Origin: Nitrososphaerota archaeon
GTDB lineage: Archaea > Thermoproteota > Nitrososphaeria > Nitrososphaerales > Nitrosopumilaceae
Reading direction: 5' to 3'
Assembly (NCBI GenBank): GCA_028867275.1
Contig: JAGWGU010000013.1
Span: 1 to 37,754 of the forward strand
DNA length: 37,754 nucleotides
In this document: one piece after another, positions 21,095 through 24,289 of the stretch
Numbering within the stretch: position 1 is the stretch's first letter
How the letters are laid out: every line of letters starts with the position of its first letter
Translations under genes and position numbers: made by a program
Notes under the pieces: generated by a model
Told to the model about the DNA's origin: nothing
The model's input: the letters and a program-made list of their open reading frames with translations, nothing else
Database searches by the model: none

Positions 21095-21904
21095 ATGAGT
21101 GAAAAAAATCAGGCAGAAAAAATGGTTTTAGAAGGAATAAGCTATGCCAAGCTTGAAAAGCACAAGGATGCCATTTCATTTTTTGACAAGGCATTAAAGC
21201 AGGACCCTACAAATGTAGATGCCCAATACAACAAGGGAATGTCTTTTTTGAAGTTAAAGAAAAACAAGGATGCAATATCATGTTTTGAGAAGATACTAGA
21301 ACACAACCCGAACCATGTTGATGCGCTAAACAACCTAGGAAATCACTTTGCAGAGTTACAGCAGTTGGAAAAAGCAGTAACATATTATGACAGAGCACTT
21401 GTAAATGATCCCACATACCTTCCAGCATCGTACAATAAAGGAATTGCATTAATTAGGCTTGAAAAGTATGATGATGCATTAGATTGTCTGAACAAAGTAC
21501 TTGATAAAGAACCTGAAAACATGCAGGCTACATATTACAAGGGATTAGTACTTGGCAAACAGAAAAAACACGAAGAGGCGTTGTCATATTTCGATAAAAT
21601 TTTAGAAAAAGAACCTGAAAACAATGAAGCAATATTTTACAAGGCAACAGAATTGTCAGAGCTTGGAAGACATGAGGAAGCAATAACCATCTTCGATAAA
21701 ATATTAAAAGAGTTTCCAAAAAATGGCACCATAATTTATGCAAAGGCAAGAAGCAAGGCTCTGCTTGGACAAAATGATGATGCACTCATTCTTCTTGCAC
21801 AGGCAATATCTCATTACGGTAGAACCATAAAGAAATGGGCAGTCAAGGATTCTTCATTCGATAAGATAAAAGAGGATCCAAGATTTAAGACAATAGTGAA
21901 GTAA
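21095..21904 (+). CDS. TPR repeat protein
   Basis: 269 aa of about seven consecutive 34-residue tetratricopeptide repeats: KHKDAISFFDKALKQDPTN, KKNKDAISCFEKILEHNPNH, QQLEKAVTYYDRALVNDPTY, EKYDDALDCLNKVLDKEPEN, KKHEEALSYFDKILEKEPEN, GRHEEAITIFDKILKEFPKN, ending in a short helical cap. It serves as a protein-interaction scaffold; no enzymatic part. Cytoplasmic. One nucleotide separates its stop from the next gene (SHOCT-like), so the two are surely cotranscribed. Confidence 0.93.
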   Translation: MSEKNQAEKMVLEGISYAKLEKHKDAISFFDKALKQDPTNVDAQYNKGMSFLKLKKNKDAISCFEKILEHNPNHVDALNNLGNHFAELQQLEKAVTYYDRALVNDPTYLPASYNKGIALIRLEKYDDALDCLNKVLDKEPENMQATYYKGLVLGKQKKHEEALSYFDKILEKEPENNEAIFYKATELSELGRHEEAITIFDKILKEFPKNGTIIYAKARSKALLGQNDDALILLAQAISHYGRTIKKWAVKDSSFDKIKEDPRFKTIVK

Positions 21905-22205: not shown

Positions 22206-22352
22206 ATGATTCTTAAATCTTAAATTCAAAAAGATTAGCACAATCACAGGATTGAAACTAGAACACCATGTCTACAACTATCAAGTACAGACTGTACAAA
22301 CTTGCACTATATGGTTAAAGAGACAAGTGAAGGTTTCAGATAGTGATTAAAA

Positions 22353-23741
22353 TTGTCAAAATTTGCCCCATTACCACCAGCGCCAGTTATCATGACATGT
22401 TTTGGTCATTGCGGAATTGGCCTTGGTGCAGAAGCATATCGAAGATTATTACTTGATGTTGGCGCAGACCCTCTCAAACCAACATTAAAGGGCGAAAAAG
22501 ACGAATCCCGCATACTCAAAAGATATGGAAGTACCATTTTGCGATTTCCAAATGCATATGGCGGAAGTGAGATTCCACTTATTCCAAGAGCACTCTTAAT
22601 TGACCTAGACCCAAGAGCTGCCAATTTAATATTACAATCATATCCAGACCTGTTTGCCCTAAGAGACAAACATGTCATCTCTGGTGCAGGTGGTGCTGCA
22701 AGAAACTGGGCAGAAGGTCGTACAAGATTCATCAAAGAAGTAAGCACAAAGTACGATATGCAAAAACAACTTGCAAGCTTATCGCCAGAACCAGTAAGAG
22801 GATTTACAGTTCCATTTGCAATGGGAGGAGGTACTGGAGCTTCGTTTGCAAGTGCCTTTATGCAATATATCAAAAAGGACACAAAAGAGCATGCAACAAT
22901 TGCATCATTTGGATTATTACCAGAGTTTGGATGGGACCCAGTAATTCTAGAAGCATCTGCAATTAATATTGTAATGAATCTTGAACACCAGATAAAATAC
23001 AGTGACTGTTCAATTCTATTTTCAAATAAAAGATTAAGAGAGCTTGCACAAAGACATGAAAAAAGACTAGACAAAATGTCCTCAATCATAGATGACCTTC
23101 CAAAAGAACACGAAGTAGGCTGGAAGGATTATAGAGGAATGAACCTAATTGCAGCAAACGCAATGTCCATGTTCATTGCATCATTTGCAAGAGAGACAGA
23201 ATGGGACATGTCAAACTATAGAACATGGCTTGCAACAAAGAGACCGAGATTTGCAATCCCATGGGTAATTCCAATTGTTCCAGAAGAGAGACAATGGAGT
23301 TCAGACTTGATGACAAGCACCAAGCATAACACCATGGAGGGAATAGTAGAGCACATAAACAAGAAAGAAGACGGTGTGCTATTTGATATTGATGAAAACG
23401 ACATTAGAGACAAGGGCGGTCCAAAAGATTCATGCTGTGCACTTGTTAAAGTGAAAGGAGACTTTGAAGCAAAAGAAAGAGACGTTCTAAAGAACATGAT
23501 AAAGGACAGATTCCACATTGAGGAATCAAGAATGATATTCATCAAGATTCCAATCTTAGAGACTGAACAAGCAAATGTCACAATCCTTGTCAACACAAAA
23601 GCAATTGGGCCAAAAATATTGGAGATTGCAAGTGAGGCAGAAGCTTCATGGGATGCATTCAAAGATGAGTATGGCAAGTGGGGACTGTCCACCGAAGAAT
23701 TCAAGGCAAGCCTCATGGACGTAGTCCATGAGTTTAGCTAG
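22353..23741 (+). CDS. tubulin/FtsZ-superfamily GTPase with tubulin-like signatures
   Basis: 462 aa, close to tubulin length (about 450) and longer than most FtsZ (350-400). A T1-like phosphate loop CFGHCGIGLG (16-25) recalls tubulin QAGQCGNQIG. IPRALLIDLDP (77-87) recalls tubulin VPRAVLVDLEP, GAGGAARNWAEG (111-122) recalls SGAGNNWAKG, and the superfamily signature GGGTGAS is at 158-164. The catalytic T7 loop is less certain: my best alignment gives DMSNYR (285-290) against tubulin NADLR, with Asn at the acidic position. Possible identities are a divergent thaumarchaeal FtsZ homologue or an artubulin. TTG start; ATG 14 codons in would cut the loop. The promoter is in the 147-bp gap. Coupled to the next gene. 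Confidence 0.9.
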   Translation: MSKFAPLPPAPVIMTCFGHCGIGLGAEAYRRLLLDVGADPLKPTLKGEKDESRILKRYGSTILRFPNAYGGSEIPLIPRALLIDLDPRAANLILQSYPDLFALRDKHVISGAGGAARNWAEGRTRFIKEVSTKYDMQKQLASLSPEPVRGFTVPFAMGGGTGASFASAFMQYIKKDTKEHATIASFGLLPEFGWDPVILEASAINIVMNLEHQIKYSDCSILFSNKRLRELAQRHEKRLDKMSSIIDDLPKEHEVGWKDYRGMNLIAANAMSMFIASFARETEWDMSNYRTWLATKRPRFAIPWVIPIVPEERQWSSDLMTSTKHNTMEGIVEHINKKEDGVLFDIDENDIRDKGGPKDSCCALVKVKGDFEAKERDVLKNMIKDRFHIEESRMIFIKIPILETEQANVTILVNTKAIGPKILEIASEAEASWDAFKDEYGKWGLSTEEFKASLMDVVHEFS

Positions 23742-23743
23742 AA

Positions 23744-24289
23744 ATGTCTGACTTTGCCTTTCTAGAGCAGGTTGCAACACGCATCAGAGAAAATAGATCA
23801 CAACTAAAAGATACTGAAGATGAGCTTGCAACAGTAAACTTTAGAATTCACGAAATTCCACTCAAGAGCCCAACCGAATCAACATTTGCAAAAATGATAG
23901 GACAAGAGTACTATGATGCATCATCAGATTTGGAAAAGGCAAAAGAGAAGCTCATTGCGCAAAAAGAAGATCTCAGTACAAAGGTAAAGGAAGACATTGC
24001 GTTATTTATAACAGAATTTACTTCTCCTGAACTTGTTATACCACTAGAGCCAAACCCAAAGATTGCAGAGGGTAACACTGTCTTTCACTACAAAAATAAC
24101 ACTACCTTTAGCAACATACTTGCAATATTAAGCGAACTTTTAGGACTCTCTCCACCAATACTTGTCAAAGACGTAATGTTTTCAGCATCAGAGATAACAA
24201 TCAAGGTCACAGACGAGTATGAGGCAAAACAAAAATTCCTAAGCAGTGTAAGCGAAGTTCAAAAGACATTATCAATCAAGAGAAAATAA
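23744..24289 (+). CDS. coiled-coil partner protein of the tubulin-like GTPase
   Basis: 181 aa. Residues 1-95 are charged helices with heptad character (ATRIRENRSQLKDTEDELA; ASSDLEKAKEKLIAQKEDLS). Residues 95-181 form an alpha/beta region (ELVIPLEPNPKIAEGN, ASEITIKVTDEYEAKQKFLS). No signal peptide or membrane helix. The ATG is only 2 nt after the stop of the GTPase gene, so the two are cotranscribed and translationally coupled. By analogy with other cytoskeletal loci, a filament regulator or adaptor is the likeliest role, but this is inference. The family is not recognised. Confidence 0.8.
   Translation: MSDFAFLEQVATRIRENRSQLKDTEDELATVNFRIHEIPLKSPTESTFAKMIGQEYYDASSDLEKAKEKLIAQKEDLSTKVKEDIALFITEFTSPELVIPLEPNPKIAEGNTVFHYKNNTTFSNILAILSELLGLSPPILVKDVMFSASEITIKVTDEYEAKQKFLSSVSEVQKTLSIKRK

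Follow-up and report, generated by a model that had tools for sequence, protein, structure and literature searches.

Artubulins, a group of the tubulin superfamily, were described in Nitrosarchaeum in 2012 (Yutin and Koonin, PMC3349469), and in the passages of that paper that deal with them cooperation with ESCRT-III was proposed from a Snf7 gene adjoining the artubulin gene. The same source describes a TPR neighbour gene for the bacterial tubulins BtubA/BtubB of Prosthecobacter. The artubulin of Nitrosotenuis is given as ∼79% identical to that of Nitrosarchaeum (PMC3835317), and a 2026 study collected artubulins via a database search (PMC13394414). The family is thus already known, close sequences are present in public genomes and artubulins belong to a small number of prokaryotic groups that have been positioned close to eukaryotic tubulins. 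We found no description of a Nitrosotalea artubulin where literature naming both Nitrosotalea and tubulin deals with tubulins, few subscription papers being represented in it; nor did the tubulin literature, as far as its text was accessible, yield a report on artubulin function. Because subscription papers are thinly covered and the 2026 study drew its collection from a database search (PMC13394414), the gene described here may well have been included in other work already.

The window (the whole 37,754-nt stretch of DNA that was analysed) carries this gene at positions 22353–23741 of the forward strand. Reading of the sequence confirmed the predicted ORF, with a TTG start and 462 codons for amino acids, as well as the signature GGGTGAS at residues 158–164 and the three further segments that had drawn attention to it, CFGHCGIGLG, IPRALLIDLDP and GAGGAARNWAEG. 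The Tubulin/FtsZ GTPase domain (Pfam Tubulin, PF00091) matches residues 13–232 with an E-value of 3e-16 (60.7 bits versus a cut-off of 33) and is the sole Pfam match above cut-off; an NCBIfam search of the 462-aa protein gave no match. The window genome has one artubulin copy. The ORF is not a chance one, and it is under strong purifying selection: dN/dS values were 0.030, 0.042 and 0.061 in three pairs of artubulin genes, dS being saturated in a fourth pair. On the basis of the 98% identity between this gene and one on the Nitrosotalea devanaterra chromosome LN890280, we assign the host to Nitrosotalea.

The original prediction had left it undecided whether the protein is an artubulin or a divergent thaumarchaeal FtsZ. 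We classify it as an artubulin, a GTPase of the tubulin superfamily. The protein shares 76% identity with the artubulin of locus L076, which comes from a closed 1.61-Mb genome. The L076 gene is surrounded by genes for Snf7, dCMP deaminase, family-B DNA polymerase, TPI, AsnC, TBP, MFS and helicase proteins, the neighbour set given for Nitrosarchaeum (PMC3349469); Snf7 was confirmed via Pfam, the remaining names were read off the sequences, and the genus of L076 (Nitrosarchaeum-type) was itself taken from this synteny, so that orthology to the Nitrosarchaeum protein is established through the L076 gene. Finally, artubulins of genus groups g14 and g17 are 79–80% identical to each other, which fits the value published for Nitrosotenuis and Nitrosarchaeum (PMC3835317). 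The window gene shares its family and its conserved loops with the artubulins of these two genera.

The prediction that the protein is a tubulin-like GTPase nearer to tubulin than to FtsZ was borne out. The best matches among proteins of solved structure, by sequence, are Asgard tubulins (AtubA/AtubB), Odin tubulin and eukaryotic tubulins. In profile–profile comparison, the artubulin profile matched tubulin GTPase domains with E = 1.2e-23 over 206 columns, so similarity to tubulin reaches well beyond GGGTGAS; the match to CetZ was far weaker (6.8e-8 over 110 columns) and that to FtsZ was not significant (0.006). A tree of GTPase domains separated tubulins and artubulins from CetZ and FtsZ with support of 99.5/99, which places the protein within neither CetZ nor canonical FtsZ. 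For this tree, as for the comparison of full-length proteins, the Chlamydomonas alpha and beta tubulin sequences and the gamma tubulin N-terminus were entered by hand; the remaining sequences came from PDB alignments or from loci of the present analysis. The artubulin branch is long and the order of branching within the tubulin side is not resolved, nor is the position of artubulins among tubulins resolved in the accessible text of a recent study (PMC13394414). For this reason the bearing on tubulin ancestry that had been suggested for the gene holds to a limited extent: the gene falls on the tubulin side, at a place among tubulins that these data do not fix.

The loops expected to contact GTP are conserved. 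We aligned 14 artubulins with overall identity down to 53% (alignment A1). In the T1-like loop GHCGIGLG (residues 18–25, positions 22404–22427 of the forward strand, as for all segments below), which aligns to GQCGNQIG of tubulins, G18, H19, G21, G23 and G25 are invariant. The T2-like segment RALLIDLDPR (residues 79–88, 22587–22616), aligned to PRAILxDLEP of tubulins, is invariant except at residue 83, and the T3-like loop GAGGAARNWAEG (residues 111–122, 22683–22718), aligned to GAGNNWAKG, is invariant except at residue 112. The DLDP motif of T2 and the NWAEG motif of T3, both alignable with tubulins, do not occur in the FtsZ sequences that were compared. Within the T4 signature GGGTGAS (22824–22844), GGGTG is invariant in A1. 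These T1–T4 motifs are held in common with Asgard and Odin tubulins, from which artubulin is separated by its long branch.

In tubulin and FtsZ, the T7 loop of one subunit completes the active site of the next one. The candidate for this loop and the start of helix H8 in artubulin is the segment RETEWDMSNYRTWL (residues 280–293, 23190–23231), an assignment made by weak alignment to T7 of Odin tubulin, outside the significantly aligned region. It is identical in 14/14 artubulins of A1. Another 15 loci extend to the segment; 13 have it unchanged, L131 carries F in place of Y, and L142 carries I in place of L. Unlike the NxDxxE of Asgard and Odin tubulins, and compared with NxDxx(E/D) more generally, the putative T7 reads EWDMSN, with E for N and with N at the position of the catalytic acid, in a part of the alignment that is weak. 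In the profile alignment with tubulin, the protein also has extra residues inserted after the T6 region. A tubulin C-terminal domain was not found at significant similarity (hhalign of the C-terminal part gave E = 0.098, a value compatible with distant homology), leaving PF00091 as the sole significant part of a canonical tubulin. An AlphaFold2 model built from artubulin and 26 close sequences had a pLDDT of 34 and was not usable.

Artubulins were confined to the order of the host in the samples searched and are patchy within it. A 400-genome sample of the order contained 98 artubulin genes in 95 genomes. The carriers known from the searches are most Nitrosotalea, many genomes of g14 and g17, few of g11 (most of the g11 genomes listed have none), and members of families f3, f10 and f13. 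Compared with the described Nitrosarchaeum and Nitrosotenuis artubulins, the group here extends to families in which amoA was not detected, there being no match in five artubulin-bearing genomes of f10 and f13. The draft genome of the window host, a presumed ammonia oxidiser of soil, also gave no amoA match, and single absences of this kind therefore carry little weight. No artubulin match was found in plasmid and phage collections; two matches in viral_contigs (L152 and L153) were rejected as chance AARNWAE matches in phage virion-like genes. Matches in genomes G078 and G092 were set aside as well, being to a 902–903-aa protein of Tubulin_2 type. Proteins of this type and length are encoded in family f7 by L120 4412–7123 (PF13809, 8.6e-13) and L121 2705–5413.

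All-against-all comparison of neighbourhoods revealed one nearly universal neighbour of artubulin, the next downstream gene, which we designate F4. In the window it lies at 23744–24289 on the forward strand, directly downstream of artubulin, and encodes 181 amino acids. F4 is present in all 95 artubulin genomes of the 400-genome sample, and for 94 of their 98 artubulin genes it lies 2–18 bp downstream on the same strand; the four genes without a downstream F4 (in G644, G002, G668 and G043) are at or next to contig ends. Artubulin thus opens a constant unit of two genes. Because it directly precedes F4 in every genome where this could be checked, F4 is the leading candidate for the protein that it works with. 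The invariant unit of artubulin and F4 is what is new here; we found no mention of the partner in the accessible tubulin literature, in which subscription papers are few.

F4 has no significant Pfam family. An AlphaFold2 model (mean pLDDT 64) has long helices at residues 4–37 and 59–92, predicted to form a coiled-coil hairpin, followed by a C-terminal domain modelled at low confidence. A PDB fold search with this model returned 550 matches at E ≤ 10 and none at E ≤ 0.001; the entries that we recognised among the top 50 are, we take it, coiled-coil or helical-hairpin proteins. F4 is under purifying selection (dN/dS of 0.068, 0.105 and 0.126 in three pairs, with dS saturated in one further pair), and it decays in genomes of artubulin-bearing families that have lost artubulin: G018 and G471 retain F4 fragments with artubulin gone, and in G084, where no artubulin was found, F4 is split by a frameshift. 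The pairing is one-directional. F4-like genes are also present where artubulin is missing, in family f2 (full length, six genomes) and in family f8 (short, mostly the C-terminal part, many genomes), so F4 can have another role as well. A divergent tubulin beside F4 was sought in artubulin-negative genomes and none was found in the loci checked. In f2 loci L111–L114, F4 lies downstream of a radical SAM-like gene and near an archaellin-like gene, names that were read off the sequence. Two g11 genomes, G605 (L139 3810–4325) and G642 (L145 4921–5706), carry a 5′-truncated artubulin without GTPase domain followed by an intact F4, which may reflect either genuine truncation or assembly error. Long open frames in f10 had suggested F4 fusions; in the one checked, L143, F4 ends as a normal 178-aa ORF.

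Upstream of the gene, an 18-bp element, ATGTCTAYAACNRTCAAG, is conserved at 22268–22285 of the forward strand, 85 bp from the artubulin start. In related loci the distance to artubulin is about 60–90 bp. The element precedes artubulin in at least four genera and opens a short reading frame that often has 16 codons but varies in length and in how it ends. The window genome has one exact copy together with near matches with one and two mismatches; an Rfam search of the element gave no match. Two genes upstream of artubulin, at 21095–21904 of the window, is a gene for a TPR-repeat protein, found in the same place in Nitrosotalea and g6. Near artubulin, this gene family is seen in three genus groups only and is not kept in most other loci compared. 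The TPR gene recalls the one beside the bacterial tubulins, and BtubA/BtubB resemble artubulin in combining tubulin genes with a conserved non-tubulin neighbour; they differ in the nature of that neighbour, since F4, with its predicted coiled-coil hairpin, does not belong to the TPR proteins. In contrast to the A/B tubulin pair of Asgard archaea, genomes with artubulin usually have one tubulin gene and this non-tubulin partner.

With a probability of about 0.75, we suggest that artubulin is a GTP-dependent filament former paired with F4 in an accessory role outside division. The protein would bind GTP and polymerise head to tail into a filament, which F4, on binding artubulin, would nucleate, bundle or anchor. 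Since the putative T7 has no acidic residue at the usual catalytic position, hydrolysis at the subunit interface would be slow, absent or differently arranged. The filament would serve cell organisation (shape, positioning or cargo), and most likely not division itself, because many close relatives have no artubulin. The noncanonical putative T7, the C-terminal half without significant tubulin similarity and the insertion after T6 would also suit a conserved pair that forms no filament, in which artubulin is a GTP-binding switch that lost polymerisation and F4 is its effector; we regard this as unlikely, given that a head-to-tail interface would be expected to keep the T1–T4 loops conserved and the T7-like segment almost invariant, as they are. 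That the protein is instead a divergent FtsZ or CetZ paralogue off the tubulin side is very improbable. These proteins share its superfamily and the GGGTG signature, and the CetZ profile match, though weaker, is real; against this stand the gap between the FtsZ and tubulin E-values, the well-supported split of the tree and a separate FtsZ-like gene in the same genome, located on another contig, whose product has a degenerate nucleotide loop, NLAGKSGA.

The proposal of a joint role of artubulin and ESCRT-III/CdvB in cell division draws on the Snf7 gene (PF03357, 2e-9) that adjoins artubulin in the Nitrosarchaeum-type genome G066, and on the description of a relative of these hosts as dividing by ESCRT-III although FtsZ is present (PMC3349469). 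In a search of 13 genomes, Snf7 matched close to artubulin in G066 alone. The remaining genomes have no such match, or have it on a different contig or at a distance above 200 kb; the single match in the window genome falls on another contig. The link is absent from Nitrosotenuis as well (PMC3835317), and many relatives, including most of the listed g11 genomes, have no artubulin. The 2012 inference thus rests on a neighbourhood absent from most artubulin genomes tested, and we consider a division role of this kind improbable, somewhat more so than a filament-free switch. Unlike the Nitrosarchaeum gene, the window gene and most others tested have no adjoining Snf7, and their constant neighbour is F4.

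Returning to the filament reading, a more specific version of it may be offered tentatively, as one that could prove right but that we would not yet favour. Artubulin, a protein of the tubulin side, and F4, as its obligatory coiled-coil partner, would constitute a GTPase filament system of two dedicated components. The system would predate the split of the artubulin-bearing families of this order, would depend neither on ammonia oxidation nor on ESCRT-III, and would run with an unusual hydrolysis loop that leaves assembly or turnover to be set by F4.

The broad comparison weakens the sole published clue to the function of artubulin, its Snf7 neighbour, and supplies a much stronger one in the constantly adjacent F4. 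For the phylogeny of tubulins, the artubulins of families f10 and f13, which have 53–60% identity, could shorten the long artubulin branch. For the biology of these archaea, artubulin and F4 make a concrete pair for co-expression and imaging.
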